Shown one piece after another: positions 20,988 through 53,950 of a stretch of DNA of 64,000 nucleotides. The position numbers were made by a program, and so were the translations under genes. The notes below the pieces were generated by a model that saw nothing but the letters and a program-made list of their open reading frames with translations, made no database searches and was not told where the DNA came from. Numbering within the stretch: position 1 is the stretch's first letter; every line of letters starts with the position of its first letter. Origin of the DNA: an uncultured Clostridia bacterium (GTDB lineage: Bacteria > Bacillota > Clostridia > Christensenellales > Borkfalkiaceae); the NCBI GenBank assembly GCA_947589385.1, contig CANPZW010000005.1, positions 51,099 to 115,098 on the forward strand. Reading direction: 5' to 3'.

Positions 20988-21437
20988 ATGACAGGAAGAA
21001 CCCGTGAAAATTACAACAAGAACTATCTCGAATACGTAAAAACGCAGGACCCGCCCACAAAGCATTTTAAAAACTGTGCTGCGGCGTTCGGCGTAGGCGG
21101 GCTTATATGCTGCATAGGGCAGTTCATCCGCTATATGCTGTCCTATATAGGGCTTACGGGCGACGAGCTTGCCGGGGCGACTTCGGTCGTGCTTATTTTT
21201 CTCGGCTGTCTTTTGACGGGATTGGGCGTCTATGACAGAATAGGCAGATACGCGGGCGCGGGTTCTATCGTGCCTATCACGGGGTTTGCCAACAGCGTTA
21301 CGTCCCCCGCAATCGAGTTCAAAACGGAGGGCTGGATATACGGCATGGCTGCCAAAATGTTCACCGTCGCCGGCGCGATAATAGTATTCGGCGTGTGTTC
21401 GGGCGTTATTGTCGGTCTGATTTATTTGTTTGTATGA
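20988..21437 (+). CDS. spoVAC: Stage V sporulation protein AC
   Basis: NYLEYVKTQDPPTKHFKNCAAAFGVGGLICCIGQ; TM protein followed by spoVAD. Confidence 0.9.
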   Translation: MTGRTRENYNKNYLEYVKTQDPPTKHFKNCAAAFGVGGLICCIGQFIRYMLSYIGLTGDELAGATSVVLIFLGCLLTGLGVYDRIGRYAGAGSIVPITGFANSVTSPAIEFKTEGWIYGMAAKMFTVAGAIIVFGVCSGVIVGLIYLFV

Positions 21438-22072
21438 AAAAGGGCAATACGTTATTTTTTAAAAACGCCCCCGCAATTCTCTCATTTGCCGCCGTGTGCG
21501 GCTCTAAGGAGAAGGAGGGAATAGTCGGTACGTACGCCGATATAACGCTTGAAGACGATATGTACGGCGAAAGCACGTACGAAAAAGCGGAGTGCAAAAT
21601 GCTCTCCACCGCCATATCGCTTGCCATAAAAAAGAGCGGGCTTGAAGAGAATAAGATAGACGTTCTTCTTTCGGGCGATTTGTTGAACCAGATTATTTCG
21701 GCAAGTTTCGCCGCGCGCGACTTCGAATTTCCGTTTTTGGGGCTTTATTCGGCGTGTTCGACGATGAGCGAAAGTATTCTTCTCGGCGCGTCTTTGGTGG
21801 ACGGAGGATATGTAAATACGGCTGTTTGCGCCACGGGCAGCCATTTTGCCTCGGCGGAAAGGCAGTACCGATATCCTTTGGAGCTGGGCTGTACCCGTCC
21901 GCCGCAATCCCAGTGGACTGTTACGGGCGCGGGCGGACTTGTGCTCGGCAAGTCGGATAAAGGAGTTAAAGTCACCTGCGGCACAATGGGCAGAGTCCGC
22001 GACTACGGCGTGACAGACGTAAACAACATGGGCGCCGCAATGGCGCCTGTTAATGCTATTATAGCACCATAA
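21434..22072 (+). pseudogene. spoVAD: 5' fragment of spoVAD, truncated at the left end of the element
   Basis: Strong SpoVAD-like N-terminal part ending ..YGVTDVNNMGAAMAP then unrelated VNAIIAP-stop; full-length SpoVAD is about 340 aa. Confidence 0.85.
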
Positions 22073-23788: not shown

Positions 23789-24298
23789 TTAATTTTTAGA
23801 AAAAAATTTTTTCAGCTCTGCGTAAGCCCTGCTCACGCGCTTCCGCAAGTTAACATATTCAATGCCGAGAACATCTGAAATTTCTTTGAAAGAGTAACCC
23901 TCCCAAAAGTGCATATAGAGTATAGTCTGAGAGGTTTTGTCCAAAGCCGATAAATATTTTTTCATATCCTCGCTTAAAATAAGGCTATCAATATCGAACG
24001 GAGCGGGGAACGTAGGGTGCAGAGGTAAATCGAAGTATATTTTATCGAGCGTGTTTTTAGCTAAATTTTCCGCAAGCGTGAAAAGCCACGCGGTGGGATT
24101 GTTTATTGTTTCTTTCTGTTCTAATTTTAAAAGTTTTAAAAAAAGTTCTTGTGCAATTTCCTCCGCCGAGATTTGATTCCCGAAGCAACGCCTTAAATGG
24201 AAAACGATTTTGGGATAAAATTCGTTATAGAGCTGTTCAAATGCTTTTACGTCGGTATTAAGTTTGCGAAACAGTTTGTTAAATTTATTAGCGTTCAT
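23789..24298 (-). CDS. ECF-type RNA polymerase sigma factor
   Basis: ISAEEIAQELFLKLLK (region 2) and LDKTSQTILYMHFWEGYSFKEISDVLGIEYVNLRKRVSRAYAELKK (region 4). Confidence 0.85.
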   Translation of the reverse strand: MNANKFNKLFRKLNTDVKAFEQLYNEFYPKIVFHLRRCFGNQISAEEIAQELFLKLLKLEQKETINNPTAWLFTLAENLAKNTLDKIYFDLPLHPTFPAPFDIDSLILSEDMKKYLSALDKTSQTILYMHFWEGYSFKEISDVLGIEYVNLRKRVSRAYAELKKFFSKN

Positions 24299-24578: not shown

Positions 24579-25484
24579 ATGAAATATCGCGAATGGTTGG
24601 AGCAATGGCTGTTTTTGGTGAAGCCGTCAATCAAGCAATGCACATATGAACGCTATACGTCGGTTGTAAAAATCCACTTGAAACCGAATTTAGGCGAATA
24701 CGACATAGACGACCTTACCGCGCGGCACCTCCAAACGCTGATTGCAAATTTGTCGGGAGCTTATTCGCCCGGCACGATAAACTGCATAGCGTTTGTGGCG
24801 AAGCGTTCGCTGTTGTGCGCGGAAGAATTGGAAGTAAGGCAAACCCGCTTGAATTGCAAAATGCGTTACAGACTGCGCTATAAACGCGATATTAAATGCC
24901 TTACGGTGGCAAACCAAATGAAATTGGAAAAATATGTGAGCAATTCGGAGATTCCCAAACTGTTCGGGATAACCATTTGCTTATACACGGGTTTACGCGT
25001 GGGCGAGCTTTTGGCGTTGAAGTGGAGCGACATAGATTTCAAAAATTCGATAATTTATGTGAACAGCACCTGTCACGACATTTATACCAACGCGGGCTAC
25101 GAAAAGCTTATCGTTGCGCCAAAGACCTTTACTTCCAAACGCGAAATACCGTTGCCGAAACGGATAACCCCCGGCTTGAAAGATTTAAGCAAAGCAAGCA
25201 AAAGCGATTTCGTTATTTCGGGCAAAGATGGACAGGTAGTATCGAAGCGTTCCTATGAAAGCACGTTCGGCAGCGTACTTAAAAAACTGGGATTGCCGCA
25301 TATGGGCTTGCACAGCCTGCGGCATACTTTTGCCACGCGCGCGCTTGAAAGCGGAATGGACGTAAAAACGCTTTCGGAGATTTTGGGACACAAAAACGCG
25401 GCGATTACATTGAATTGCTATGTTCACAGTTTGTCCGAACACAAGCGGGCGATGATGAACAAAGTTGGCAAAAATTTACAGTAA
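24579..25484 (+). CDS. Tyrosine recombinase (phage-integrase family), candidate DNA invertase
   Basis: TGLRVGELLALKWSDID, HSLRHTFATRALESGMDVKTLSEILGHKN, CYVHS (R..HxxR..H..Y); SAM-like N-terminus. Confidence 0.93.
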   Translation: MKYREWLEQWLFLVKPSIKQCTYERYTSVVKIHLKPNLGEYDIDDLTARHLQTLIANLSGAYSPGTINCIAFVAKRSLLCAEELEVRQTRLNCKMRYRLRYKRDIKCLTVANQMKLEKYVSNSEIPKLFGITICLYTGLRVGELLALKWSDIDFKNSIIYVNSTCHDIYTNAGYEKLIVAPKTFTSKREIPLPKRITPGLKDLSKASKSDFVISGKDGQVVSKRSYESTFGSVLKKLGLPHMGLHSLRHTFATRALESGMDVKTLSEILGHKNAAITLNCYVHSLSEHKRAMMNKVGKNLQ

Positions 25485-25493
25485 AAACGCTAT

Positions 25494-25516
25494 AAAAAAA
25501 GGCGTTCAACAACGCC
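25494..25516 (-). terminator. Leftward-acting intrinsic terminator beside the invertible segment
   Basis: Minus strand reads GGCGTT-GTTG-AACGCC-TTTTTTT. Confidence 0.7.
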
Positions 25517-25523: not shown

Positions 25524-25548
25524 TTCAAAGTAAACCCTATACTTTGAA
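25524..25548 (+). repeat. Inverted site IR-left of promoter switch
   Basis: TTCAAAGTA-AACCCTA-TACTTTGAA. Confidence 0.9.
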
Positions 25549-25627
25549 AAAATTAAGGATAAAAGCCGCGTTTTTGTAAAGTTATGTATCTTCTGTAAAT
25601 TTTTTACAAAAAATTTTTATTATTTCC

Positions 25628-25656
25628 TTGACAAAATTAAACCTAAGTGATATTTT
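25628..25656 (+). promoter_or_regulatory. Invertible sigma-A-type promoter (reads toward 25764 in this orientation)
   Basis: TTGACA (25628-25633), 17 bp, TATTTT (25651-25656), between two inverted sites. Confidence 0.8.
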
Positions 25657-25670
25657 AATAGTGAATAAAA

Positions 25671-25695
25671 TTCAAAGTATAGGGTTTACTTTGAA
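25671..25695 (-). repeat. Inverted site IR-right of promoter switch
   Basis: TTCAAAGTA-TAGGGTT-TACTTTGAA, exact reverse complement of 25524-25548. Confidence 0.9.
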
Positions 25696-25763: not shown

Positions 25764-28526
25764 ATGAATTCGATAAAGAAATTGTCAATCTCGCTAATGG
25801 TTGCGGCTTGTACAGCTTGCTTTATATTCGGAATTGCAGGCTGTGAACCCGACAACGGAAAAGATACTATCGAACATGTACATAGCTTTTCCGAAGAATG
25901 GATGTCCGATACAACCGAGCATTGGCACGAGGCGACGTGCGAGCATACCGACGAAAAGGGCAGTGTGGGAACGCATATCGATGAGGACAACAACGGCAAA
26001 TGCGACGTTTGCGATTACACAATGCAAACCGGGGAAGCGCATACCCATACGTTTGACAGAAGCCATTGGGAACACGACGCGAACACCCATTGGCATGCGG
26101 CAACCTGCAGCGATACTACCGAAAGACAAGACGAAGCCCCCCATATTGACGAAGACGATAATCAAGCGTGCGACGTTTGCGAAGAATACGTGCCCCATAC
26201 CCATAAATTCAGCGAGACGGAATGGGAATTTGACCTCGATAACCACTGGCGGCCCGCAACTTGCACTGATACAAACGAAAAAGGTAGCGAAGCCGAACAC
26301 AATTTTGACAACGGCGGCGTATGCGAGTGCGGATTAAAGGAAGTAGAAAAGCAGGCTTATAACTCTTTAATAGACTACAAAATCCTTGATGGGGAAGAAA
26401 ACGATTTTTACACCTGGCTTACGGGTTTAAAAGCGGACGGGAAAGCGGTGCGGGTAACCGAAAAAAGCGACATAGTTTATGACCATAACGGGAATGTTGA
26501 GGTCGTATATGTAGCCGAAAGAACGATAAAAGTAAAAGCGACGATAGACGGCGGCAATGGTTTGGAGCACGTTTGGTTTAAAGTTGCAAATACTTCCGCT
26601 TCCGAAACCGACGAACATAACACCAACGCTTTGGGTGTAGGAGAGACGGGCGCGGACGGCGTTGCCACAATAACTTTCAAACCCGCCGGCTACACTACAT
26701 ATAAAATAATGCTTGCCGAAGCAAAAGACGTTGCCGCACTTGTAGGCGGCGAAGAAGCCGACATAAAGGTTATGCCCAACAGATATTCCGTTAAAAATTC
26801 CTCGGCGGGCAAAGGCGAAGTTGGTGATATTGCGGTAGGAGAAACGGACGAAACAGGCACCGACGATATTACGGGAACGCTTGACTTTAAATACGACGTA
26901 AGTTGGGCGGCTTCCGACAAACAGATGTTGCCTTACGAGCGGCGTTATGATGATGAAGTAGCCGGCACCGGTGGACCGAAAGAATACGGAAAAGAATACA
27001 ATTTCACTGCAACGGGCGGCAAAATTTTCGATTATCTGCTGTTTTCACCCGCGCATAAGTACGATTGGAATGCGGGTAGCACTTCGGAAGATTTCGATAA
27101 AATAACCGAAAATTTCAAAAACGCGGCTTCGGGCGAATACGAAATTTCGTTCACCGCAGAGGGCGACGATAGCGCGCGCTTGTACTATTGGGGCGAAATC
27201 GACGATTTATCCCTGGGGCAAAAAGAATCAGACGATTCGCCTTCCAACTCATATGTCACGTCTGTTTCGGGTACAAAACCCGCCGGCTCGACTATTGCCG
27301 ACAAGGCGTTCACTGGCGAAAACAAAGTTTTAGTCACAATAAAGCCCGAAAGAGGTTTGGTGGATTTCCAACTCGGCATAATATGCGAAAACGCTTGTCT
27401 AGTTAAGATAACCGTTAAAAGACTGGGTGATTATGTGGCATTGGAAACGGGTGGTGTCCTTACAGTCGGCGAAAATACCAACGGCGGGAAAGGATATACT
27501 CTTAACGGCAGTGAGGATAACAATGGCGTAACTGCGTTTACGCTTCAAGATGTAGAGCCGGGTTTATATTATCTTACCGTAGGTACGGGCAAAACTATCG
27601 GTGCCTACAAGGCTTATTGTAGGTCGAGCGAAAAAACTATCCTTTATGAAGACGGGAAGTATAAGGGCGTAGTTCGCGTAAATGAGGGCGACACTACCTT
27701 ATATTTGCAGTACGGTTTACGAGGCACTGGTAAGAGAGACTCAATATCATTAGAGAAGTATGTAGCTCCCACTGTGGGATTAGAAACTTCTTGGATTCCC
27801 GCTTCGGGAAAGGATTGTGAAGACATCGAAATAGGCTTTGACGGTGCGGTAAGTCCCGGGCAGTACAGAATGGAAATATCTACTTTCGGATATGAGACCG
27901 GATATTCGGGCGGGGGAACATCCGATGGCTTTTATGCAATTGTTAAAGTGGGAAGCAGAAGTTATCAGACGTCTCTACGGGCTAAATATTTTGCTGACCA
28001 GTCATCCGGTGCCTTGGCTAACGAATGTGAGTATAATCCGGCGGTAATAGAGATAAAAGCGGGCGAAACACTTAACCTTCATGTCACTACGCCGCAGATA
28101 CAAGGTTTCTCCGCAAAAGTAAAACTTGTGGCTTATGGCGGCGTTGCTGTTGGCGATGTGATAACAATTGACCGACCTGAGAAAAGTTCGAAAGTTGAAA
28201 GATACACTTTTACCGCGTCATCTGCCGGAACATATAAGATTACTTTGAATTTGATTGAACAGTATTTCCATGGCAACACCTCTAAACCCGAAAAGTTTAC
28301 CGATGGCGACCTTTCTACACTGGACGTAAAGGACGAAACACATAACAGCATGATTATCACGCACACAAGAGCGCAAGGTTATACTGGTGCTCCGATTGAA
28401 GACCCTGTGCGGACCCTTTCGGGAACATTCACAATGGAGGAAGGCGGAAGTATCATACTTGCGATTAGTACGACTTTATCAAGTGAGCTAATGAAATTCA
28501 GTTTTACGATAGAATTTGTTGAATAA
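25764..28526 (+). CDS. Large surface lipoprotein with three His/Cys/Asp-rich N-terminal repeats
   Basis: Lipobox FGIAGCEP; repeats W..D...HWH.ATC...HIDEDNNGKCDVC. Confidence 0.75.
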   Translation: MNSIKKLSISLMVAACTACFIFGIAGCEPDNGKDTIEHVHSFSEEWMSDTTEHWHEATCEHTDEKGSVGTHIDEDNNGKCDVCDYTMQTGEAHTHTFDRSHWEHDANTHWHAATCSDTTERQDEAPHIDEDDNQACDVCEEYVPHTHKFSETEWEFDLDNHWRPATCTDTNEKGSEAEHNFDNGGVCECGLKEVEKQAYNSLIDYKILDGEENDFYTWLTGLKADGKAVRVTEKSDIVYDHNGNVEVVYVAERTIKVKATIDGGNGLEHVWFKVANTSASETDEHNTNALGVGETGADGVATITFKPAGYTTYKIMLAEAKDVAALVGGEEADIKVMPNRYSVKNSSAGKGEVGDIAVGETDETGTDDITGTLDFKYDVSWAASDKQMLPYERRYDDEVAGTGGPKEYGKEYNFTATGGKIFDYLLFSPAHKYDWNAGSTSEDFDKITENFKNAASGEYEISFTAEGDDSARLYYWGEIDDLSLGQKESDDSPSNSYVTSVSGTKPAGSTIADKAFTGENKVLVTIKPERGLVDFQLGIICENACLVKITVKRLGDYVALETGGVLTVGENTNGGKGYTLNGSEDNNGVTAFTLQDVEPGLYYLTVGTGKTIGAYKAYCRSSEKTILYEDGKYKGVVRVNEGDTTLYLQYGLRGTGKRDSISLEKYVAPTVGLETSWIPASGKDCEDIEIGFDGAVSPGQYRMEISTFGYETGYSGGGTSDGFYAIVKVGSRSYQTSLRAKYFADQSSGALANECEYNPAVIEIKAGETLNLHVTTPQIQGFSAKVKLVAYGGVAVGDVITIDRPEKSSKVERYTFTASSAGTYKITLNLIEQYFHGNTSKPEKFTDGDLSTLDVKDETHNSMIITHTRAQGYTGAPIEDPVRTLSGTFTMEEGGSIILAISTTLSSELMKFSFTIEFVE

Positions 28527-28583
28527 GTTTTTATTTGAAGGCGGCGCCATATATGGCGACTAAAATATTAGGAGGAGTTTTTT

Positions 28584-31500
28584 ATGAAAAAAACTCGAAC
28601 AAAAACCCTGGCTGTCGTAGCCCTCACATCGGCTATGACCGCCTGCGTAGCCGGAGGAATTGGTTACGCGAAGTTAAACCACGCAGTATTTGCATCTGCG
28701 GATACTGCAAATTACTATGCGGAAAGGAGTAACGTCTTTTCCGGGACAGGTACGCTGACGCAGACGGAGTCGGCAACCTTTGCGCTCACGGGCGTAAAGG
28801 CGGGACAGTATTCGGTGACGGTGGAAATCACACACACCGAGGGCACTTCCCAAGACTGGTTCTATCTGTCGGCAACGGGAAACGGTGAAGCGGTGTTCCT
28901 TAACGAAGGTACCGAAACCGAAGGCAATCCCAAATATTATGGGGTTGTAAACGTTGACGAGAACGGCACTCTTACAATTTCCTCCACCTCGCCGAACACA
29001 TTGTCCGTAAGCGTAACGCTCGAGAATCTCTTTATGAGCGAGGGGAACGGATATAGTCTCGGCAATGTATTGATTCCGACGGACGGAATGAATGCTCTTG
29101 ATGTAGAGATTCGTGACACTACTGCAAAGACCTTTACCGTTCAGATTGACCTTGGCGACCGTATTTTAACAGACGAAGAAACGTTAACGGCAGAAATAAA
29201 TGATGCAAGCGCAGAATTGGTTGCTCAAACCGCAGACCTTGCAATCTACTCGGCAACGATAACACTTCCTACAACGGTTGAAACTGCAACGAGCTTGACT
29301 ATCGAATCGACAATAGTAGCGTCCGAGGGTGAAAGCGTAGTAGGTTCAATTACCTTATTCCCTCTCGGCACGGCTACACCCATAACTGATAAAACCGCAA
29401 CGGCTACAAATGTGCCCGTTTGGGAAACTGCAATATTCTCATATACGCCTTCCGAAACGTCTTATCAGACGGTTGCAATAACCTCGACGGCAAGTCCTTT
29501 ATATACCTCAACGACCGTAAGCACAGTCGCGGGTACTTTTAGCGGCTCGCCCGTTGCCGGCGAAGATTATCCCGTATATCTCGAAGCGAATACTACATAT
29601 TACTTTGAAGTAACGCTTTTGGGAACGGATGAACAGGGCGAAGACGTAGGATATACGAGCGCAGACCTTACCATAACTCTTAAAGACTGGGAACGTCCCA
29701 CAATAGAAGTAGGCGGTTCGTACGCTTTACCTGTAACCACCGCGGACGAAACTCCCGAGATGTTTACTTTGACAGCGGCAGAGGGTACCTATGACCTTAC
29801 CATTACCGAAGTTCCTTTCGACTATTATATTTACGGCATTACAGTCACAGCGCATATAACTTATGCCGCTGGAACCCCTGCGGTTCAAGAGGTAGTTTTG
29901 GATTCGGATCATAACTATTCCGCGTCGGTTGAAATTGCCGCTAATGCAGAGAGTATTTATTTTACAACTTCTCAAAATAGCCGTTCGGTAATCCGTGTAA
30001 GTTTGACCGTACCCGAAGTTCTACATTACATAGTACCGGGTGAGTCCACCGATATCACCGTTCCCGCTAACGGCTCGATAACATACTTTATCGAAGCCGC
30101 GCCGTCAGGCGTTTATTCGCTCAATTTGACGAAAACTTCGTCGAGCGTTTCCGTTATGGTCGGTGACGTTACCATAATCCCCGCTGGCAAGACCATGGGC
30201 GGTTTTGTAGTGCAGTACGCAGGAAACGATTTCGGCATAACTTTTGTGAACAGCAGCGATGCGGAAGTTGAAATTACCGCGATGGTTGCGGCCGAAGCCC
30301 AAGACACAACCATACAGCTTAATGAAGGTAAAACCATTACGTTGGCCGCAAATCAGAGACAGGCGTTCTTTATGTATAGCCTTGCGGCAGGTGATTTTAC
30401 GTTGAGCATTACTCCTGCAACAACAACCGGAATTGCGCTTGAAGTTGACGGCGTACCTGTAACCTTAACCGACGGAGAGGCTATAATAACCATTTCGGAG
30501 GTACAGGATGCAAATGGGCTTGTAAACTTCACGTTTGAAAATACCGGAGATGAGTCCGTTACTTTCACCGTTACGGTTACGCCCGAACACATGGTAAATG
30601 TAGGCGAGGAATTTGAAATTACGGTTGCCGGATACTACAATTATGTTGCATATTATGTAGGAGGATTTAAAGCCAACACCGAATACTACATGGTACTCGA
30701 CCTTCCCGAAGGCGTTTCCGCTACCGTATCTCAGAACGGCGAAGAATTCGTTTACTACGGAAATGCCATTGGTGTGTTCACCGCGGATAGCAACGGTTAT
30801 ATAACGATGAGATTCAGTATATATGCCTATGGCGATTTTACTACGGTTAGGGCGTATATTGATGAATATGAAGCAAGTACGGAAAAAACTATGACTTTGA
30901 ATACCGCTACTAACATAACGGTAGAGAAATACTATACAACTTACACTCTTAACCTTACACAAGGTGTGTATTATATCAGCGTTTTGGGCGATGTGGAAGC
31001 GACCATTAACGGAACGCTTGTTTCGAATTCCATTTCGTATTATGTTGACGCCGCCGAAGGTCAAGTGGTAACGGTAAGAGTTACGTTTATCAACTTCACC
31101 GGCACTATCGCTACGGCTACCGCCACGGTTGTAACCGACGTAATGAACGTCGGCGAAGAAAAGACCGTAACTCTCGCGGCAGATTCTTCCAATGTTTACG
31201 GCATAGACCTTGAAAGGGGTGTGTTCACTTTATCTCTTTCCGAGAATGAGAACGTTGAAGTACGGTTTGACGGCGTGGTAGTTGCACCCGAAAACGGTAC
31301 TTACAGGTTGGATGTTACTATGAGCGGCGGTCATACCTTGACTTTCGTGAACACGGGTGCTTCCGAAGTTTCTTTCACGGCGACAGTTACTCCCAACAAT
31401 CTCTTAACGCTTGGTGAGGAAGAAGAAATTACGCTCGGAGCCGGAAGTAGTGAAAATTACTACATTGACCTTGAAGCGGGTTCGTACACTGTAACTCTTA

Positions 31501-31667
31501 CCTTTGCTGACGGTTCTGAGATTGAAGTTTACTTTGAGGATGAGCAGATTGTTTATTCAGGTGAAAACTTCGGTACTCTTACTATAGTGAATAGTGGCTA
31601 TAATGTTTTGACTTTCGTTAATTTGGCTGATACAGAAGTTACTTTCACTGTTATAGTAACTAGATAA
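28584..31667 (+). CDS. Large secreted protein with tandem beta-sandwich-like repeats
   Basis: N-terminal signal; recurring NVGEEKTVTLAADSSNVYGIDLERGVFTLSLS..FVNTGASEVSFTATVTP modules. Confidence 0.7.
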   Translation: MKKTRTKTLAVVALTSAMTACVAGGIGYAKLNHAVFASADTANYYAERSNVFSGTGTLTQTESATFALTGVKAGQYSVTVEITHTEGTSQDWFYLSATGNGEAVFLNEGTETEGNPKYYGVVNVDENGTLTISSTSPNTLSVSVTLENLFMSEGNGYSLGNVLIPTDGMNALDVEIRDTTAKTFTVQIDLGDRILTDEETLTAEINDASAELVAQTADLAIYSATITLPTTVETATSLTIESTIVASEGESVVGSITLFPLGTATPITDKTATATNVPVWETAIFSYTPSETSYQTVAITSTASPLYTSTTVSTVAGTFSGSPVAGEDYPVYLEANTTYYFEVTLLGTDEQGEDVGYTSADLTITLKDWERPTIEVGGSYALPVTTADETPEMFTLTAAEGTYDLTITEVPFDYYIYGITVTAHITYAAGTPAVQEVVLDSDHNYSASVEIAANAESIYFTTSQNSRSVIRVSLTVPEVLHYIVPGESTDITVPANGSITYFIEAAPSGVYSLNLTKTSSSVSVMVGDVTIIPAGKTMGGFVVQYAGNDFGITFVNSSDAEVEITAMVAAEAQDTTIQLNEGKTITLAANQRQAFFMYSLAAGDFTLSITPATTTGIALEVDGVPVTLTDGEAIITISEVQDANGLVNFTFENTGDESVTFTVTVTPEHMVNVGEEFEITVAGYYNYVAYYVGGFKANTEYYMVLDLPEGVSATVSQNGEEFVYYGNAIGVFTADSNGYITMRFSIYAYGDFTTVRAYIDEYEASTEKTMTLNTATNITVEKYYTTYTLNLTQGVYYISVLGDVEATINGTLVSNSISYYVDAAEGQVVTVRVTFINFTGTIATATATVVTDVMNVGEEKTVTLAADSSNVYGIDLERGVFTLSLSENENVEVRFDGVVVAPENGTYRLDVTMSGGHTLTFVNTGASEVSFTATVTPNNLLTLGEEEEITLGAGSSENYYIDLEAGSYTVTLTFADGSEIEVYFEDEQIVYSGENFGTLTIVNSGYNVLTFVNLADTEVTFTVIVTR

Positions 31668-31684
31668 AGAATTAAACCAAACCT

Positions 31685-31710
31685 CGGTTTACCGCTTCGG
31701 CGGTAAACCG
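31685..31710 (+). terminator. UUCG-capped hairpin between operon genes (possible attenuator)
   Basis: CGGTTTACCGC-TTCG-GCGGTAAACCG followed by TTGGTTTTCTTTT. Confidence 0.55.
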
Positions 31711-31765
31711 TGCGCTTGGTTTTCTTTTAATACCCCAAAAAATAAAAAAGTGGAGGTTAAAAATA

Positions 31766-32986
31766 GTGGGTAAAAAAAGTAAACTTGCCGCATTGGTAGC
31801 GGGCGCAAGTCTGCTGCTTGGTACTTTCGGTTTGACCGCATGCGCTCCCGAAAACGATGATAAAACGGGCAACAGAGTTCCCGAAGATATATATGCAATC
31901 TATATCGCTTATGCAGAGACCGCGGGAGAGGATGCTATGACCTATGACGAATGGTATGCACATCTTCTTGAAACCGCCAAAGGCGATAAGGGTGATGACG
32001 GTAAAAGTGCCTATGACATATGGAAAGAAAACGGTCATAGCGGAACGGAAGCCGAATTCCTTGAATGGCTGAAAGGCGGCAAGGGCGATGACGGCAAGAG
32101 CGCGTATGACATATGGAAAGAGCAAGACGGCAACGCCGAAAAAACAGAAGCTGAGTTCGTTGAATGGCTGAAAGGAGATAAAGGCGACGACGGCGACGAA
32201 GGTCCGAAAGGTGAAGCGGGAACAAAGTGGTTCACGGGTGAAGATGATGAGCCTTCCGCAGACCTCGGCGCGGAAGGCGATTTTTATTTAAATACCAAAA
32301 CGTTCGACCTTTGGACTAAAATTAAGGATTCCGGTTGGACTAAACTTGGTTGCATAAAAGGCGCGGACGCTGGTAGTGAAGCATCTCCTCAATATAAAGT
32401 GGTTAAAGATTTCGGACCAAAGACTATAAGTACAGAAGAAGTGCCGCTTGACTTGAATGAGGTTGATAACGGCACTTATTTTTTAGTCGTTGAAAGTGAT
32501 AGTGCGGCAGTAGCCAACAATTTAATGTGTAATCTTGATGCTAAACGTGACTATGATATGTACTGTCCTTTATCCCAAAGCTATAAAAGTGTTGTATTAA
32601 AAGGCGATGGTTCAGCGTTAAAACTTAAAGCCACTCAAAGTGTAACAGGAAATGTAAAACTTGTTGAATATTCGGCACCTACGATTAAAGCAGGCGAAAC
32701 TTGTGAAATTCCTTTACTGAATAGAAACTATGGTTATTTGCCAATTAATGTTGAGTCGTCTTTAATCGGGAAAAAAGTAAAAGTTACAATTCGTAGCTCG
32801 CTTGCCGTTGTAATTTGTCAATCTAATGATAAGCATACAAGTTTTGGTTCAATTACTGCTGATGCGGAAGATAAAACATTATATGTTAAAGAAATAACAA
32901 TTCCTGATGGAATGGATGCATTGTGCTTTGCAACATCAGCAACTAATTGTGCTAATGTGACTGTAAAAATTGAGATAGTCGATTAA
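31766..32986 (+). CDS. Lipoprotein with short collagen-like segments and AYDIWKE..GTEAEFLEWLKG repeats
   Basis: GTG start; lipobox FGLTACAP; GDKGDDGKSAYDIWKENGHSGTEAEFLEWLKGGKGDDGKSAYDIWKE. Confidence 0.75.
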   Translation: MGKKSKLAALVAGASLLLGTFGLTACAPENDDKTGNRVPEDIYAIYIAYAETAGEDAMTYDEWYAHLLETAKGDKGDDGKSAYDIWKENGHSGTEAEFLEWLKGGKGDDGKSAYDIWKEQDGNAEKTEAEFVEWLKGDKGDDGDEGPKGEAGTKWFTGEDDEPSADLGAEGDFYLNTKTFDLWTKIKDSGWTKLGCIKGADAGSEASPQYKVVKDFGPKTISTEEVPLDLNEVDNGTYFLVVESDSAAVANNLMCNLDAKRDYDMYCPLSQSYKSVVLKGDGSALKLKATQSVTGNVKLVEYSAPTIKAGETCEIPLLNRNYGYLPINVESSLIGKKVKVTIRSSLAVVICQSNDKHTSFGSITADAEDKTLYVKEITIPDGMDALCFATSATNCANVTVKIEIVD

Positions 32987-33017
32987 GTTTTCATAGCTTT
33001 ATTCCTTTTTAAACTTT

Positions 33018-33051
33018 CCCGTTTGCCGAAAACGGCAAACGGGAATTTTTT
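33018..33051 (+). terminator. Intrinsic terminator
   Basis: CCCGTTTGCCG-AAAA-CGGCAAACGGG-AATTTTTT. Confidence 0.75.
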
Positions 33052-33081
33052 AGGAAGCATATTAATAATTAAGGAGTTAAA

Positions 33082-35460
33082 ATGCGATTATTATGCAAAA
33101 AATTTATACTGTTGCTTTTTCCGTTGGTTTTAATTTTTGCCGCAATGGGGCTTGTCGCATGTAACGGCGGCGGCGAAACGCACAATGTTACGGTTAATTC
33201 AAATTTGCCGTTGACTGCGCCGCAAATTGAGCTTGCGGAAAACGTAATCAGTTGGACTGCCGTTGAAAATGCGGGTAAGTACGAAGTTTATGAAAACAAT
33301 TCGAGAATCAATGTGCAAACCGAAACTTCGTTCACAATCTCCCAAACGGCAGTTGGAACATACAAATACAGAATCAGAGCGTTGAGCGCGGACAAAAATC
33401 ACAGTTCGAGCAAATTATCGAACGAAGTGGTTTACACCGTTAAAGGCAAGATACAGCTTGCCGCGCCGCAGGTTTCAATAGACGAAGCCGCCAAAACGGT
33501 AAGTTGGGCCGCCGTTGAAAAAGCGGACGGCTACAAGGTTCTTGAAAACGGCGAAATCGTATCTTCGCAGACTGAAACTTCTTATACGATTACCCATACC
33601 GAAACGGGAAAGTATAAGTACACGGTTATAGCCACGAGCGCGAGCGAGGATTACAGCGAAAGCAGATCCTCTAACGAAGTGACCTATATAATAAGCGAAC
33701 AGCTTGCCACGCCGCACATAGAGCTTGACGAGGCGACCAAAACGATAAGTTGGACGGCTGTGGAACACGCCAATACTTATTTCATTTACGAAGACGGATA
33801 TGTTATCGAAGCTTCGTGGGACAGCACTTCGTATGTAATTGAACAGACAATAGTGGGAGAGCATACCTATTGCATTACTGCGTTGGGAGATGATTCCTCT
33901 GTTTACAAAATGTCCGAAAAATCCAATACCGTTACCTATGTCATTGAACCCACCGTGCTTGCAACGCCGGACGGTCTGAAAGAGGAAAGGGATTTACAAG
34001 GTCATGTTACGCTTGTATGGAACGAAGTAGAGGGTGCGGGCGGTTATGTCATTTATGAGAATAACCGAAAAATTGAAAAGAGGTGGACAGATTCCGCTTA
34101 TCCCATAACCCATGTGGAAGCCGACACCTATGAATATAAGGTGCAGGCAATTCCCGCCCGCGACGACAAGCAATATCTCGAAAGCGGTATATCCGAGCCT
34201 ATCGAAATAACGATAGAGGACAACAGAACCCAACTTTCCGAGCCGAAGAATTTTAGAATCGAAACCCGCGAATTTTATTATAAAGACTCGCAAGGAAACA
34301 TTATTCCCGGTACTGTGCCTGTATCTTATGAATGTCTTGTTTGGGATGAGGTTGCAAACGCGGAGAATTATCTTGTATATGAAAGCGGTAAGCGCGTGTA
34401 CAGCACAACCGAGACATATATTGAGATTGGAAAGCAATTTAGCGAGCCTAGAAAATATAAATTCCAAGTAAAGGCGGTTGCACATGGTACGCTATATAAA
34501 TCGAGCGAATTGAGTGAAGTCTTTGATGATTTTAAAATCGATGTTGAAAATATAAAATATACGGTTAGGCTTAATGTTGACGCGGCTTCCCGCTTTTCGC
34601 AGTCCGTGCAAGTGGGCTTGTTCCCGCAAGATAATAACGGATTGCCCGCGCAAACTGTTCCGATTGGCGGTACAACAAGAAATTTAACTACAACCGAGCC
34701 TGCGGAGATAGAATATAACAACGCCATAAGCTATGTAGCGAAAATCATCAACTTGCCTGCGGGTTACTATGCTACAGAGGTAAGGCTTTCAGCTATGAAT
34801 CCCGAGGGAACAATATATGTTTATAATTCTACTTCGGATGTATTCAGTGTCTCGAATAGTAATTCTGTAAATATAAAGATAGCAAATGAGCCGCAGAGCA
34901 AGTTATTTATACCAAACGAAGCAGGGCAATACACAATAAGCACTACCGAAACCAAAGAAATGACAATCGGCGTAGGCGCAAGCGCAAGGACGGCGATAGA
35001 TACTGGAAACGGGCTTACAATGTTTACGTTTTCGGCAGACGCCAATGAAGCTGTATTGATTTCGGTTAATAGCCCTGAAATCGGTGCATACAGATTCACT
35101 ATTGAAAGAGGTGCAAAAACGCCTTCGTTAAAAATAGGCACGGAACGCGGAGATAATGCAAACGTCATATCGGGTGATATGCAATCGGTGGAATATTCGC
35201 TTAATTTATCGACAGATACGGAATATATTTTCAATTTCTCACCAATGTATTTGGGCCCCGACCGCTTTGCGACGGTGACTATCAACCCCGACACAGTCAA
35301 TGAAGAAGTCTATGAATTTGACGGCGGATATGAATATGAAAAGCACATATTCATAAAAGCGGGTCAAAATATCAAGATTCGGGTTGATATAATTGGTACG
35401 ACGACGGACGAAACGATGTCCAACGTTTATTTCAGCGTATTTCCGTTGACAGAAGACTAG
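33082..35460 (+). CDS. Surface lipoprotein with tandem Fn3-like repeats
   Basis: Lipobox MGLVACNG; LAAPQVSIDEAAKTVSWAAVEKADGYKVLENGEIVSSQTETSYTITHTETGKYKYTV repeated about 5 times. Confidence 0.8.
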   Translation: MRLLCKKFILLLFPLVLIFAAMGLVACNGGGETHNVTVNSNLPLTAPQIELAENVISWTAVENAGKYEVYENNSRINVQTETSFTISQTAVGTYKYRIRALSADKNHSSSKLSNEVVYTVKGKIQLAAPQVSIDEAAKTVSWAAVEKADGYKVLENGEIVSSQTETSYTITHTETGKYKYTVIATSASEDYSESRSSNEVTYIISEQLATPHIELDEATKTISWTAVEHANTYFIYEDGYVIEASWDSTSYVIEQTIVGEHTYCITALGDDSSVYKMSEKSNTVTYVIEPTVLATPDGLKEERDLQGHVTLVWNEVEGAGGYVIYENNRKIEKRWTDSAYPITHVEADTYEYKVQAIPARDDKQYLESGISEPIEITIEDNRTQLSEPKNFRIETREFYYKDSQGNIIPGTVPVSYECLVWDEVANAENYLVYESGKRVYSTTETYIEIGKQFSEPRKYKFQVKAVAHGTLYKSSELSEVFDDFKIDVENIKYTVRLNVDAASRFSQSVQVGLFPQDNNGLPAQTVPIGGTTRNLTTTEPAEIEYNNAISYVAKIINLPAGYYATEVRLSAMNPEGTIYVYNSTSDVFSVSNSNSVNIKIANEPQSKLFIPNEAGQYTISTTETKEMTIGVGASARTAIDTGNGLTMFTFSADANEAVLISVNSPEIGAYRFTIERGAKTPSLKIGTERGDNANVISGDMQSVEYSLNLSTDTEYIFNFSPMYLGPDRFATVTINPDTVNEEVYEFDGGYEYEKHIFIKAGQNIKIRVDIIGTTTDETMSNVYFSVFPLTED

Positions 35461-36737: not shown

Positions 36738-37164
36738 GAAACACAGGCAAGGAATAACATTAAAAAGCCGTACATTAAAGATTTGTCTGAAAAGAAAAGG
36801 CTATGGACAGACGTATTTTGCGGCACGGCTCGGTATGAGCAGGCGGAATTTAATGCGCAAGCTGTATATGCGGCAAACGTTTAATCAGAGGGAAATAACC
36901 GAATTGGTACGGCTATTGGGCGCGCGTATGGCAATCAAAGTAATATGGTTTCCGAGTTTGCGGGAAAAAAGGAAAATACAAAGATATGTGTGGTGGAAAC
37001 AAATGTCTGAAAAGAAAAATTTTAAGGATTTGCAGCAGGACGATTATGTCGGGAACAATAACAAATTGTTTGCGGAGCAAGAACAAGGCGACGAAATTGA
37101 AAAGTTGATATTTACTTGTAAAAAGCTACCGAGCCGTAAATTTATGAGGAGAAGAAATGTATAA
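36691..37164 (+). CDS. Putative HTH DNA-binding protein
   Basis: GYGQTYFAARLGMSRRNLMRKLYMRQTFNQREITELVRLLG. Confidence 0.5.
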   Translation: MALKASTFKSVINFTEKHRQGITLKSRTLKICLKRKGYGQTYFAARLGMSRRNLMRKLYMRQTFNQREITELVRLLGARMAIKVIWFPSLREKRKIQRYVWWKQMSEKKNFKDLQQDDYVGNNNKLFAEQEQGDEIEKLIFTCKKLPSRKFMRRRNV

Positions 37165-40100
37165 CGGTAGATTGACTGAACGCAATGCGGCGATAGCCGA
37201 GATGTTAGCGGACGGGGAAAGACTGAAAAACCTTTATCGATTTACGGCGCAAAATCCTCATATAAATCTTCACGACGCATGTCAGATAGTAATCGAGCGA
37301 CCGAATGTGACGGTATGTTATTCGTTTAACGAATGGTCAGCAATGGAACGGCGTATAACGAAAGGCAGGAAAGGGATTGAATATTACGACAGTGACGGTT
37401 ATAAGCAGTTTGTATTCGACGCCAATGATACGCACGGCGAAAACCGTTATATGCGCCCGATAATAACAATGAGAAGTTTGCTCGGCGGCTTGTCGGAGTT
37501 GAATGGCGTTCCGGATTCAGACTCGGAGCAGAGCGATTACATAAAAATCCGAAACGGCGTTCAAGACTACCTGCGCGAACAAGGTGAGCTAAACGGCGAC
37601 GAAGAACGCGATAAATTGCTTGTCGAGGGTGTGGCATATTCGCTGTACTCAAAAACAGGCTTCCCGAAAAGTGCGGGAATAAAATTGGGCGGGCTACCCT
37701 ATGGCTACCGTGAAAACGCCGATTTTGTAAAAAACGTGTATGTGTGGGCTAATAATCTTGAACAAGACATAGAAGAAGCAAACCGCGAAAAGCAAACCGA
37801 AATAAAAATCATAGACGACACGGACGAAGAAAACGTTTCGGACGAGCCATTATTGCCGACGAAGCAAGTGCGCAAGAAAGTGTTTTCGAGCGCGGTAAAA
37901 ATGTACGCGCAAAACTATGTTATTTTAACAGATAATCAAGCGGATAACGGCGTGGAAACGCATATATACATAGGCAAGCCCGAAAATCTTGACGAAGAGA
38001 CAAACGCTTATGACAATTCGGACGATAGCTTAATTTATGCAACGGACAGACCGCAGATGGCGTATTTATTATACGGTAAGGCATATGCGCAGACACAGCA
38101 AGAACTAATAGATAACGGCACATTTACGAAAGAAGATTATGCGGAATACAACAGATTAAAAGAGGGTGAATTAAAAGAAATCCTCGAAAAGGCAGATTTA
38201 AGATTCGGAATAAAAACGGGCGTTGCGGACAGCGGGTTGCCGTTTAAATATCCCGAATGGGAAATCAGCGAAAAACCTAATGTTGAAGAAGCACCGACAG
38301 TAATACCGCTATATCAGAAATATATCGATTCGCAAAAATTAGAACCTGCGGCGGTAGTTTTAATGCGGCTCGGTGATTTTTACGAGATTATGGGCGAGAA
38401 CGCCGTAAAGGTTTCGGAAGAACTTGACATTACATTGACGGGCAGGGACGTCGGGCTTAAAGAGCGGGTGCCGATGTGCGGTATGCCTTATCATGCAATG
38501 GATAAGTGTTTGGACAAAATACTTGAAAGACACAGCGTATTAATTGTGGACGGTGATGAAGAACCAAAATATATACTATCGCATACGGAAGCGCGCGCAA
38601 AACACGTTGAAAAAGAAGAAAAGAAAAAGCCGGAGCTTGTGGAAATTACGCGTGATGAACCAACGCCGTTTGATAATGAACAGCCTGAAACGGACGAAGA
38701 TTGGCGAACCGAACTTGCCGAGGAGCTTGCCGAGGAGAACGGGCAGCCCGAAGAAGAAATTGCCGAACCCGAAGAAGATGAATCGGAGGAATTGGAGGAG
38801 CCGCCCGGAAGCATAAGCGAACAGCCGAAAGACAAGGTTAAATCCACACCGAAGAAAGAAGAAAAGGGTATAAAAGACCGCAAGCGCAAACCGAAGCCGC
38901 AACTGTCAATGTTCGATATGCTTAAACCGCAAGAAAAATCGGCAGAGGAAGCACTCATTGAACGAGAGTTGAAGCGCGGCGGTAGTCTCAAATTTCGTAT
39001 TTTCGATAAGTACAATAAAAACCCCACGCAAAAAGCGTTTGCCGATTTTATAAAAAACGAATACGGAATAGGCGGATATAGCAGCTGGGAGGGCGATAGT
39101 GCAACGCATGACGCAAAAGGTATTACAATGTCCGTTCGCGGTAAGAACGGTGAATGTCTTGTTACAGCTTCTTTGAAATGGCCCGAAGTTGCAGTGCGAA
39201 TTGCAGACCTTATAGACGACGACAACTATTTTACCGAACAGGAAAAACAAGAATATGTCGAATACAAGATAGAGCAAGACCGCCAAAAAGCTATACAGGC
39301 AGAAAAAGAACGTCAAAAGACCGAACTTATAAACAAAGTAATTTTTTTTGCGCCGCCCGACCGCAAACAGCGTATTTTGGACGAATACGCAACCACAACG
39401 GTGCTTACCGATTTTGCCGAATTTCTTAAAAACGAATACGGAACATTTGAGGAACACGGGGAAGGCTATTCCGCAATATATAACCAACAGGGTATATGGA
39501 TTTACAAAGGTGAAACCTATGACTACCAAAAGGATTTTTATCTCAACTGGACAGAATTTGCGGATAAGACTTGCACACTCATAGAAAACGACAGATATAT
39601 CGAACAGTCAGAGCCGGAAGAACAGCCGCGTGATTTGGATGCAGAGGAAGATGAAGATTGGGATAACCTGATAAGTGCCCATGTATTAAAACCCATAGAG
39701 CCAACGACTGAAAAAGATAAAATCAAGAGTATTGTTGACCGCATTGTAAAAGAGGGAACGGAAAACACAAGCGGCGGAAATTGGATAATTTACCTTGACG
39801 AGTTTGGCGATGACGAAAATTTTGTCAGGGAACACAAAGGGGAAATCGGTGAGATTCTTGCTTTGCGTGAAGAAGTTGCGCGAGTTGCAATGGATGACGA
39901 AAGCATAGACACAAAGTTTCACTTGGAATTTTGCCCGAATATCGAAGAAGAACAGTCAGTTGAGAATACAAATCTGAACGGCGTATTAAACCAAAACGAG
40001 CTTGGCGGAGCAAAGACGAGATTCCGCAATAACGTTGCGGCAATCAAACTTGTAAATAAGCTGTATTCGGAAAACCGTAATCCCACGGATGCAGAGAAGA

Positions 40101-43100
40101 AAGTACTTTCACAGTTTGTGGGTTGGGGCGGATTATCAGCGGCGTTTGACGAAAATAACCCGCAATGGAAAAAGGAATACGCCGAACTGAAAGGAATACT
40201 CTCGCAAGAGGACTATGAACAAGCGCGTTCGAGTACGCTCAACGCATATTACACGCCAAAAGAAGTAATAGACGGCATATATACTGCGCTCGGTCGGTTA
40301 GGCGTAAAAGGCAATAACAGAATTTTAGAGCCGTCAATGGGCACGGGCAATTTCTTTGGATATATGCCGCAAGAGATAGCAGATGGAAGCAGGCTTTACG
40401 GCGTGGAATTGGATAATCTTACGGGCAGGATAGCGGCAAAGTTATATCCGCAAGCGAACGTACAGATAAAAGGTTTCGAGGACACGAGTTTTCCGAACGA
40501 TAAATTTGATATTGTGGTAGGCAACGTGCCGTTTGGCGGTTACGGAATCGCGGACAGCGATTATAACCGTTACAACTTCCGTGTTCACGATTACTTTCTT
40601 GCGAAGTCCATTGACAAGGTAAAGCCTGAGGGAATAGTGGCGATTGTGACGAGCAAAGGCACAATGGACAAGCTCAATCCGAACGCAAGAAAATATGTAG
40701 CGGAACGCGCCGAGCTTTTGGGGGCAATACGGCTTCCGAACACGGCATTTAAGCAAACGGCGGGAACGGAAGCCGTGGCAGATATATTGTTTTTTCGCAA
40801 GCGTAAAGAGAAAATAACGGATTTATCGGGCATAGAATGGCTCGGCACAGGTAAAACGACCGAGGGATTCGAGATAAACAACTATTTTGTGCAACACCCC
40901 GAAATGGTACTCGGCACACTTGCGGAAGAACACGGATTATACGGCGGAATAGACATAACGGTGAAGCCCGACGAACGTGATTTGTCGGAAGCATTAGCCG
41001 AAGCGGTTAAAAATTTACCGCAAGCCATATTTACCGTTCCCGAAAAATCTCCCGAAGCGGAGTCCGCAACGGAAGTGGACTATAACGTAAAACCCATGTG
41101 TTACAAAGCCGAAAACGGCAGACTGTATATGCGCGTGGGTGACGAAATGCAGGAGCAGGCTATCCCGAAATTTCCGAAAGACGCATATCAACGCATAAGA
41201 GGAATGATAGCGTTGCGGGATGAGCTTCATCATATCCTCGATATACAGATACAAGGCTGTTCTGACGAAGTGCTGAATGCTGAACAGCGGAAGCTCAATA
41301 CGCAGTACGATTTATTTGTAAAAAAATACGGCGAGTTAAACAGTCAGACAAATACAAGGCTGTTTGCGGACGACGGTGACAGCGCATTATTATTCGCCTG
41401 CGAAGATATAGATAAGGAAACGCAAAAAATAAGCAAGTCGGATATTTTTTATGAGCGCACAATCCGTCCGTATGCAGTGCCGACAAGTACAGACGATTGC
41501 TTTGAAGCATTGCAGATTTCAAAGAACGAGCGCGGCAAAGTGGATATAGAGTATATCGAGGAGCTTACGGGAAAATCTTATGACGACGTGCTTTCGGAGC
41601 TTGACGGCGCGGTATTCAGAAACCCCGAAAAGGTTTACAGGTCTGATAAGTATTCGGGCTTTGAAACGAGCGAAGAATATCTGTCGGGGAAAGTGGTTGA
41701 AAAACTACGTATAGCGCGAATGTTCGCGGAGGAATTTCCCGAATATGAAAAAAATGTTACGGCATTGGAACGCATGCAACCCACGCCGATAAAGGCGAGC
41801 GATATTTCAGTAAGGCTCGGACAGACCTGGATAGGCAAAGAAATATACAAGCAATTCTATATGGAGCTTGTGGGAGTACGTTGGTGGCAACGTGATGGCG
41901 TTCAACTGTTCTATAATCCGTACGATTCAAGTTGGCGGTTAGACCAAAAGGACAGCGTTCGTTACGATACGGAAATGAAACAAAAAGAGGTTTACGGTAC
42001 GAAACGCGCACCTGCATACAGACTATTTATAGACTGTATGAACTTAAAGGCGACGACGATTTACGATACCGTAATAGACCCGGACGGAACGGAAAGGCGG
42101 GTACTTAACCAAGCAGAAACAATAGCGGCGCGTGAAAAACAAAACCAAATCAAGGAAGCGTTTGCAAACTGGATATTTGCAAAGCCCGAACGCCGTGAAG
42201 AGTTGGAAGCAAAGTATAACCGTCTTTTCAACCAAATAAGATTGCCGAGCTATGACGGAAGTTATTTAAAATTTCCCGAAATGAATCCCGCGATAGAATT
42301 GCGCCCACATCAGAAAGACGCGATTCATCGCATAATAACAAACGGACAAAGCACATTATTGCATCATGTAGTAGGGAGCGGCAAGACATATACAGTGGCG
42401 GCTTCAATAATGAAAATGCGGCAGCTTGGGTTATGCAAGAAAGCAATGGTAGCAGTGCCAAACCATCTTGTACAGCAGTGGGCGGGGGAATGGCGCAAGT
42501 TATATCCCAACGCAAAAATTCTTGTTGCCACAAAAGAGGATTTGGAAAAGAGCAACCGGCGTAAATTCGTATCAAAGGTTGCGCTTGGCGATTGGGACGG
42601 AATAATAATCGCACAATCGAGTTTTGCGAAAATCCCCATATCGGCGGAGCGGCAAATAAGAAAACTGAACGAAGAAATAAATACCGTAGAGCAAACAATT
42701 AAAGCGACGTGGGAAAGAAACGGTATGCCGCGCGGAGCGGTCAAAAGTTTGGAAAAAATCAAAAAGACCAAACAAGCCCAACTTAAAAAGCTGATGGACA
42801 ATAATACCAAAGACAGCGTATTGACCTTTGAAAACCTCGGCGTGGATTATCTATACATAGACGAAGCTCATTATTATAAAAATTTGTTCTTATTCACAAA
42901 AATGAACAACGTAGCGGGCATATCGAACGCAGCAAGCCAAAGAGCAAGCGATTTGAAATTGAAATGTGAATACATGCAAGGATTGCACCAGAGCGACAGA
43001 GGCGTTGTGTTTGCAACGGGAACGCCTATAAGCAATTCAATGACAGAAATGTACACTATGCAATCTTACTTACAGCCGAGTATGTTAAAGGACATAGGCA

Positions 43101-50212: not shown

Positions 50213-50353
50213 TTGAATAAGAAAGATAAAGAAATTCCCGAAATCGAGATACCGAGAGGATACGAAATAGACGAAATTCTTGATATGGGCGTGGGCGGTT
50301 TGGGGGATGAAAAACCTATTTTGCAGGAGGAGGTGAAAATACGTTTTGAGTGA
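50213..50353 (+). CDS. Small acidic protein (46 aa), unknown
   Basis: TTG start after AGGAGGAT: (M)NKKDKEIPEIEIPRGYEIDEILDMGVGGLGDEKPILQEEVKIRFE; overlaps the next start; not in ORF track. Confidence 0.5.
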   Translation: MNKKDKEIPEIEIPRGYEIDEILDMGVGGLGDEKPILQEEVKIRFE

Positions 50354-52037
50354 CGGCGATAAAAAGAGCGTTTATGACAAGCTCACCCCGCAGCGGAAAC
50401 AGCTTTTTGATAAGGTTATGGCTAACCTTGAAAATGATAAAAGTATTTGGAAACAAGGTTGGGCGGTAACGGGCGCACCCATATCGGCAATATCGGGCAA
50501 AAAATACAACGGCATAAACAGAATGTCGCTTGCGGTTGCGACAATGGAACGCGGTTATTCGGATAATCGTTGGCTGACATACAATCAGATGAAAGAAAAC
50601 GGTTGGGAGTTCAAACGCGACGAAGAAGGTAACAGCCGCGGCAAAAACGCAGGAGTACCAATAGAATACTTTTCGCTTTACGATAAAGAAACAAAGCAAA
50701 AGTTTGACAGAAGTGTGCTTGACGGAATAACCGAAGCCGAGCGCAACGAGTATATGGACGACAACGTAATCGCGCTACGGAAATATTATTGTGTATTCAA
50801 CGGCGATATAATAGACGGAATCCCCGAACGCGAAAAGCATGAGCTTGACCCTGCGCAAAGGAACAGCCGTGCGGAAAATTTATTGCAGTATTGGAGCGAC
50901 AACGAAGCAAAGATTATATACGGCGGCGACGACGCGGTTTACCGTTCAACGACGGACGAAATACATTTGCCCGAACGGGACAGGTTTGTGGACTTCCACG
51001 AATTTTATTCAACGGCTTTACATGAAGTCGGACACAGCACGGGATACAAAACAAGGCTTAACCGCGATATGAGCGGCGAATTCGGGTCTGAAAAATACGC
51101 CGAAGAAGAGCTGCGCGCGGAAATAGCTTCTATGTTTATTGAGCAGGATTTGGAAATCGGCGCGGGTGACAAGCATATCCAAAACAACAGCGCGTACATA
51201 AAGCATTGGCACGATAAGATAAAAGAAGACCCCAACGTACTGTTCAAAGCGATAGCCGACGCGGAAAAAATCACCCAATTTGTAATGGGCAAGGAAAAGC
51301 AGATACAGCGTGAAACCGAGCCTTATGCAATAGTTGAGGAAACGGACGAGTACGGCGGCACGGTATATAAGGTAAAAATGGCGGACGAAATCGGGGGAAC
51401 GCGGGATATAATCGGCTATCCGTTCAGGAGCAAAGACGCGCTAATGACCGAGTTTGGCAAACTGCAAGAGCTTCCGTTTTGGGCGGATAAGGAATTTAAA
51501 GAAGTGACGGTTGACGAGTTGGAAGCCGAAAGCCGTAAACGTTTCGGAGAGCAAAACGCAAAAACAGAGCGGTTACGGGAAATTGAAGAAGAAAAATCGG
51601 AAGTGTTCATACCGCCCGCCGAAATTGCCGCCGAGATTGCGGCAGAAACGGCGGTGGCGGAAACGGTTGTTGCCGTGGATATGACGGGCAGGGGAATCGA
51701 AAGCCTTACGCGGATGGACGACAGGGAAGTTGTTGACAAGGCAAGCAAGGCAAAACACGGTGAAAAATTCCTTGCACTGTTTAACGGCGAAAAAGTGCTT
51801 GGAACGGAGGAACAAAACGAGCGGTCTTTAATGGCAAGGCTCGCGGTATTTACGGGCGAAAATTCCGAACAACTTTTGCGGATTTTCCGCGCTTCGGGAC
51901 AATACCGCGAGGATAAGCCTAACAGCTATTACGAAAAAATGGCAAGAGAGGAAGTACAGTTTGTAGCCGGATTGAAAAAACCTGTTCCCGCCGCCGCAAA
52001 ATCTTCGGGCAGTAAATTTATCAATACTAAAACTTAA
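50346..52037 (+). CDS. ArdC-like antirestriction / zincin-domain protein with a C-terminal module shared with the megaprotein
   Basis: N-terminal ssDNA-binding-like region; ALHEVGHSTG metallopeptidase motif; C-terminal GRGIESLTRMDDREVVDKASKAKHG. Confidence 0.75.
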   Translation: MSDGDKKSVYDKLTPQRKQLFDKVMANLENDKSIWKQGWAVTGAPISAISGKKYNGINRMSLAVATMERGYSDNRWLTYNQMKENGWEFKRDEEGNSRGKNAGVPIEYFSLYDKETKQKFDRSVLDGITEAERNEYMDDNVIALRKYYCVFNGDIIDGIPEREKHELDPAQRNSRAENLLQYWSDNEAKIIYGGDDAVYRSTTDEIHLPERDRFVDFHEFYSTALHEVGHSTGYKTRLNRDMSGEFGSEKYAEEELRAEIASMFIEQDLEIGAGDKHIQNNSAYIKHWHDKIKEDPNVLFKAIADAEKITQFVMGKEKQIQRETEPYAIVEETDEYGGTVYKVKMADEIGGTRDIIGYPFRSKDALMTEFGKLQELPFWADKEFKEVTVDELEAESRKRFGEQNAKTERLREIEEEKSEVFIPPAEIAAEIAAETAVAETVVAVDMTGRGIESLTRMDDREVVDKASKAKHGEKFLALFNGEKVLGTEEQNERSLMARLAVFTGENSEQLLRIFRASGQYREDKPNSYYEKMAREEVQFVAGLKKPVPAAAKSSGSKFINTKT

Positions 52038-53944: not shown

Positions 53945-53950
53945 CAAAAG

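Follow-up and report, generated by a model that had tools for sequence, protein, structure and literature searches.

Invertible promoters are already known, and several of them resemble the locus described here. In the fim switch of Escherichia coli (FimB/FimE), with a segment of ~314 bp and the accessory proteins IHF and Lrp, a tyrosine recombinase gene likewise lies beside a promoter that is bounded by inverted repeats and switches a surface operon. The cwpV/RecV system of Clostridium difficile resembles our locus in its tyrosine recombinase, ~21-bp inverted repeats, 195-bp segment, surface protein and class, Clostridia (PMC2784873). In cwpV, however, the promoter is outside the segment, the OFF state is achieved by a transcript terminator, and recV is not adjacent (PMC2784873); the promoter found here is inside the segment, and the locus is not a terminator switch of the cwpV/RecV type. 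The invertible promoters obtained with PhaseFinder (Jiang et al. 2019) are similar in the passages of PMC11868660 and PMC11892184 that cite them: a promoter between inverted repeats, surface genes, and a recombinase close by. The closest published item is inverton group 139, which passages of PMC11892184 link statistically to invertase group 35, a nearby tyrosine-type recombinase of gut Clostridia (32 of the 33 members of this set are from the class Clostridia); it is likened to our locus by this statistical link. The passages on group 139 mention neither a quantised spacing nor a terminator facing the recombinase, both features of the family described below. The published motifs of invertible promoters that PMC11892184 names are from Bacteroidota and Akkermansia, in contrast to the lineage-specific 25-bp core that we found in MAGs of Clostridia incertae sedis. 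The switch itself is of a known type; the family architecture, together with the quantised spacing, is what appears to be new.

In the window (the whole stretch of DNA analysed, 64,000 nucleotides), the region following a tyrosine recombinase gene appears to be a self-contained promoter-inversion (phase-variation) cassette, a reading to which we give a probability of about 0.93 from the sequence. Its parts, and the genes that it would switch, are as follows.

24579-25484, + strand: dedicated tyrosine recombinase (301 aa) with SAM-like core-binding and catalytic domains, without a separate arm-binding domain.
25501-25516, - strand: predicted intrinsic terminator, GGCGTT-GTTG-AACGCC then TTTTTTTA, facing the recombinase.
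25524-25548, + strand: left recombination site, TTCAAAGTA-AACCCTA-TACTTTGAA; 7-bp crossover at 25533-25539.
25549-25670, no strand: invertible segment of 122 bp, with its promoter towards + (predicted ON); flipped in the closest relative, L122.
25628-25656, + strand: predicted sigma-A type promoter, TTGACA (25628-25633), a spacer of 17 bp, then TATTTT (25651-25656) with an extended -10 TG; transcription is predicted to start near 25663.
25671-25695, - strand: right recombination site, inverted; crossover at 25680-25686.
25764-28526, + strand: ORF1 (920 aa), first gene of the operon, with a lipoprotein signal (GIAGC) and HxH/CxxC-rich repeats; no Pfam match.
28584-31667, + strand: ORF2 (1027 aa), with a signal-peptide-like N-terminus and a phospholipase C C-terminal-like domain.
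31766-32986, + strand: ORF3 (406 aa), with a lipoprotein signal (GLTAC) and a weak match to a collagen-like adhesin.
33082-35460, + strand: ORF4 (792 aa), with a lipoprotein signal (GLVAC).

The original prediction, which had proposed that two 25-bp stretches at the positions of the sites are exact reverse complements, was confirmed in coordinates and identity, and the match extends to 26 bp when one flanking base is included. The pair bounds a short intergenic segment, and no further copies of the arm-N7-arm pattern (up to 3 mismatches) were found in the 64-kb window (0.06 expected from dinucleotide shuffles) or elsewhere in the whole 1.53-Mb genome. The recombinase gene, said to end ~40 bp to the left, stops 39 bp before the left site. 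The consensus promoter TTGACA-N17-TATTTT was also present between the sites on the + strand, and in the assembled orientation it is aimed at the 25764-35460 operon, as expected of a putative ON state.

In the proposed mechanism, the recombinase would bind both inverted 25-bp sites (9-bp arms and 7-bp crossover), which would be brought together by bending the intervening ~147 bp into a tight loop, and strand exchange inside the identical 7-bp spacers would flip the 122-bp segment. The promoter would drive the four-gene surface operon (25764-35460) in the assembled orientation (ON), and in the other it would fire at the recombinase gene and be halted by the terminator at 25516-25501 (OFF). What the analysis shows directly is the anatomy of the cassette, the flips between relatives, the identity of the spacers, the geometry of the promoter, and the quantised spacing; we infer from the sequence the recombination chemistry, promoter activity, pairing of recombinase and sites, and ON/OFF phenotype, and also flipping in this strain.

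The recombinase matched PF00589 (E 1.6e-29) and PF14659 (E 7.7e-11), the latter from residue 4, which would leave no room for an arm-binding domain of the Tn916 type. Its catalytic domain contains the R, K, H, R, H, and Y of a tyrosine recombinase: R140, K182, H245, R248, H271, and Y281, which were invariant in an alignment of 18 homologs and are the established catalytic residues of the family. The closest solved structures (6emy and relatives, E 8e-20) matched the catalytic domain only. Differing from fim, this protein of 301 aa with a core-binding domain scored far below the cut-offs of the NCBI models for tyrosine-type DNA invertases (FimB/FimE type): 30.1 bits against 221 (NF007370) and 21 against 222 (NF007371). 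A sigma-70-family (ECF-like) factor gene is located at 23789-24298 (- strand); it diverges from the recombinase gene, and a C39-peptidase-like gene comes after it. This factor could regulate the cassette or the operon.

Homologs of the recombinase were gathered from the genus, the order, and GTDB representatives, giving 197 distinct genes, and inverted 9-7-9 sites within 400 bp downstream were accepted at a pair score of at least 31, with shuffled sequences and upstream regions as controls; this score replaced a search by exact 10-mers, which had missed diverged pairs. A site pair was detected downstream of 87 of the 177 homologs with enough sequence, compared with 0.7% of dinucleotide shuffles and 3 of 176 upstream regions. 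The 94 cassettes analysed below include some whose contig ends sooner after the gene. Roughly one homolog in two had no detectable pair nearby: among 88 genes without a close pair, 12 had one within 4 kb downstream at a strict threshold, 9 of them family-like and 3 seemingly unrelated, and some of the other genes were near misses. The window's own genome carries further cassettes at C30 and, with a broken recombinase, at C9; no pair was found near its three intact paralogs (two on C8, and one on C6, where the contig end cuts it off). At the threshold used, 96 of the 397 genomes sampled from its order contained the recombinase family, and elsewhere in the class it occurred only as more distant, longer relatives; none of the 22 testable longer recombinases (350-418 aa) from other orders had a site pair beside it (maximum score 29). 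In several MAGs (L113 (G000:C6:1), L131, L135, L142, and L025), contigs stop within ~120 bp past the recombinase gene, where assemblers might break at mixed orientations. In L326, the region 1-216 after the recombinase stop has ~175 extra bases ahead of the inverton relative to L320 and L323, which may represent a duplication or a second inverton in tandem.

The shape of the sites, put forward originally as a tyrosine-recombinase core with 9-bp arms and a 7-bp spacer, was borne out by conservation in the 94 cassettes. The half-site consensus was TWCAYNKAW then TA. In 92 of 94 cassettes the left spacer matched the reverse complement of the right one over its full 7 bp, and per-position identity was 98-100% in the spacer versus 53-97% in the arms; since the pair score gave spacer positions no extra weight over arms, this contrast was not built in. 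Tyrosine recombinases need strict homology of the spacer and tolerate differences in the arms, and partner sites with identical crossover spacers and variable arms are what we found. These results support the assignment, made from sequence comparison, of the sites as tyrosine-recombinase cores with a 7-bp crossover.

AT-rich DNA readily yields promoter-like matches, and a promoter scan by itself was rejected as evidence because shuffles gave equal numbers (8 promoter-like sites in the region versus 8.5). The significance of the window promoter comes from its position, which is conserved in homologous cassettes: its -10 ends 14 bp from the proximal site, and a distance of 12-15 bp was found in 71 of 92 cassettes, ON and OFF alike (~4% expected by chance). 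The best promoter scores had a median of 11.0 in cassettes and 6.5 in shuffled segments. The segment thus holds a predicted promoter that would read out to a gene in one orientation. ORF1 starts at 25764, 68 bp past the right site, and is preceded by AGGAGG. On the other side, the window terminator (25516-25501) would block transcription that began at the flipped promoter. Between the stop codon of the recombinase and the left site, a terminator of this polarity (hairpin and T-tract) was detected in 38 of the 64 cassettes with room for one (1 of 64 in shuffled sequences; 12 of 64 for the opposite polarity), and in L122 a hairpin of different sequence occupies the same place.

The search for a flipped arrangement in related genomes, recommended with the original prediction, gave a positive result in L122, in pairs with collinear flanks, and in the two promoter orientations of the 94 cassettes. 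Between the window and L122, the segment was 58% identical when flipped and 39% when unflipped (best shuffle, 47%), and the recombinase flank was 71% identical unflipped; the flank on the operon side was too diverged for alignment. A clear promoter orientation was seen in 92 of 94 cassettes: 28 had it pointing away from the recombinase (ON) and 64 had it facing the recombinase (OFF), as they stand in the assemblies, which show one form per genome. An all-against-all comparison of homologous segments gave 49 pairs, of which 26 shared their orientation with respect to the recombinase and 23 were opposed; the promoter call agreed with the alignment strand in 48 of the 49. L265 and L266 are on two contigs of the same genome: between them, the recombinase (75%) and 1.7 kb of sequence downstream (87%) aligned unflipped, and the segment aligned flipped (83%). 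L320/L326, L323/L326, L325/L177, and L310/L027 similarly had a flipped segment between collinear flanks; several pairs with this arrangement are 81-89% identical. Both orientations therefore occur in nature, among relatives and paralogs. When mapped onto a tree built from the 94 recombinases, ON/OFF orientation required 24 changes versus 24.2 for shuffled states and so carries no phylogenetic signal, and the class of site spacing required 33 versus 46.6; orientation is thus forgotten between neighbouring tips and spacing is inherited. The related cassettes of L265 and L266, one ON and one OFF, stand ahead of 87%-identical helicase genes, which resemble defence-system models (the estimated contamination of G128 is 4%).

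The genome's own assembly contains the window segment in a single orientation, and one might suppose that the cassette is derived from an inverton but has lost flipping in this strain; the broken sister recombinase on C9, which retains its site pair, is in line with such a locked state. We regard this as unlikely, because the window recombinase is intact with all catalytic residues present, and the window sites, unlike those of most cassettes, are perfect in both arms and spacer. Exact-pattern scans of metagenome and viral contigs found no flipped copy from the same species; they returned 71 and 6 stretches, respectively, all with a single site and never paired, which were rejected as relatives and attributed to chance because no pair was present in any.

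It may also be asked whether the palindromes are RNA hairpins or operator sites of a regulator, with a merely incidental mirror symmetry. The predicted ON mRNA begins a few bases ahead of the right site, which in this transcript is predicted to fold into a 9-bp stem with a 7-nt loop near the 5' end, and such a stable hairpin would suit this proposal. Since neither the identity of the spacers in inverted orientation, nor the flips between collinear flanks, nor promoters pointing both ways would be predicted by it, we give it almost no credence, and a promoter-inversion cassette remains the preferred reading.

The surroundings of the cassette point to a mobile element. To its left are the chromosomal genes for thymidylate synthase and DHFR, followed by spoVAC and by codons 1-206 of spoVAD (21446-22057), beside which lies the left end of the element (region 21395-22072). 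The remainder of spoVAD is on contig C15 (G000:C15, L359:6719-7153), by a HipA-like gene as read from the sequence, with the gene for a large serine recombinase of 577 aa ~3 kb past it. To the right (50346-57478) are genes for an ArdC-like metallopeptidase, an N6/N4 DNA methylase, a MobL-type relaxase, and a T4SS coupling protein, and at 37157-48805 a 3882-aa protein with matches to SNF2/ResIII helicase, Eco57I-like, MutS-I-like, and DUF3849/DUF3848, a combination typical of conjugative elements. A homolog (61-64%) of the 3882-aa protein adjoins another cassette, in L011. The cassette thus probably rides on a conjugative element inserted in spoVAD. We infer that the window contig joins C15 as the other end of the element; no short identical core was detected at the two spoVAD edges.

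Many tyrosine recombinases serve as integrases of such elements, and, with genes for a T4SS coupling protein, a MobL-type relaxase, and an ArdC-like protein on the same probable element, the recombinase could be its integrase and the repeats parts of attachment sites or arm sites, without any inversion switch. We consider this very improbable and rejected it once spoVAD proved to be split and a large serine recombinase was seen near its C15 half; that enzyme forms a natural integrase and is likely to be that of the element in place of the tyrosine recombinase. An integrase gene of the resident element with an attachment site at the element end was not what we found: the edge is near 22057-22072, three genes away from the cassette. 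Furthermore, the inverted sites are 147 bp apart, many genomes have the same arrangement next to unrelated genes, and relatives differ in the orientation of the segment, all of which argues against the integrase reading.

The distance between the sites (start to start) was not continuous in the family but clustered at 127-130, 136-141, 146-151, 155-161, and 166-170 bp, with almost none between; two outliers were shorter and two longer than 190 bp. The period was ~10.2 bp, close to one turn of the DNA helix, with a mean resultant length of 0.66. After recombinases were thinned to less than 60% identity (n=35), the resultant was 0.62, a value reached by 0 of 5000 smoothed resamples, and at less than 55% identity (n=19) it was 0.58 (p 0.003); the period also held in the ON set, in the OFF set, and at stricter score cut-offs. 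Differences in spacing between pairs of cassettes with recombinases more than 60% identical had peaks near 0, 10-11, 20-21, 31, and 42 and troughs at 4-6 and 15-17, the pairs being non-independent. For 30 pairs of sister tips, the larger differences, ten in number, were 8, 9, 10, 11, 11, 13, 20, 21, 28, and 52 (p 0.008; one of these ten pairs joins long branches). The distance from the promoter to the proximal site was fixed, and changes in length were located in the distal part of the segment.

The simplest reading of this periodicity in sequence is that recombination requires the bound sites to be turned towards each other across a stiff loop of ~14 turns, although the constraint may come from some other looping protein. 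We lean towards the view that this recombinase family needs no bending or enhancer protein: synapsis would be direct across a stiff loop of ~150 bp, only spacings near whole turns would survive, and length would evolve by about one turn at a time. Quantised spacing between inverton sites is apparently new; a search of open-access literature for helical phasing in tyrosine-recombinase invertons returned only a paper on the serine recombinase Hin, which is weak evidence of novelty.

All four genes behind the window cassette are predicted to have lipoprotein or signal-peptide N-termini, and the order ORF1-ORF4 is kept behind a homologous cassette of G124 (L249), with 30-36% identity. Of the 81 cases elsewhere in which the first downstream gene could be read, 49 looked secreted or membrane-targeted when judged by a crude test of the N-terminus. 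These cassettes precede genes for predicted lipoproteins, pilin-like proteins, NusG-like antiterminators, ABC transporters (one ABC ATPase), a DegT-type aminotransferase, EcoRI-type and C5 DNA methyltransferases, and helicases matching defence-system models.

If direct synapsis is true, the recombinase family would be a natural, order-wide record of the constraint that DNA twist places on site-specific inversion, and the device would be a very small switch, ~1.1 kb in all, ahead of surface, pilin, capsule, and DNA-modification genes. The quantised spacing provides a simple, testable physical rule for the flipping of short DNA and a sharp filter for finding more switches, and the fixed distance from promoter to site, together with the recurrent terminator, allows the predicted ON/OFF state to be read off an assembly. 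Variation of surface and DNA-modification systems by one shared device may extend across a large group of gut Clostridia, most of them uncultured.
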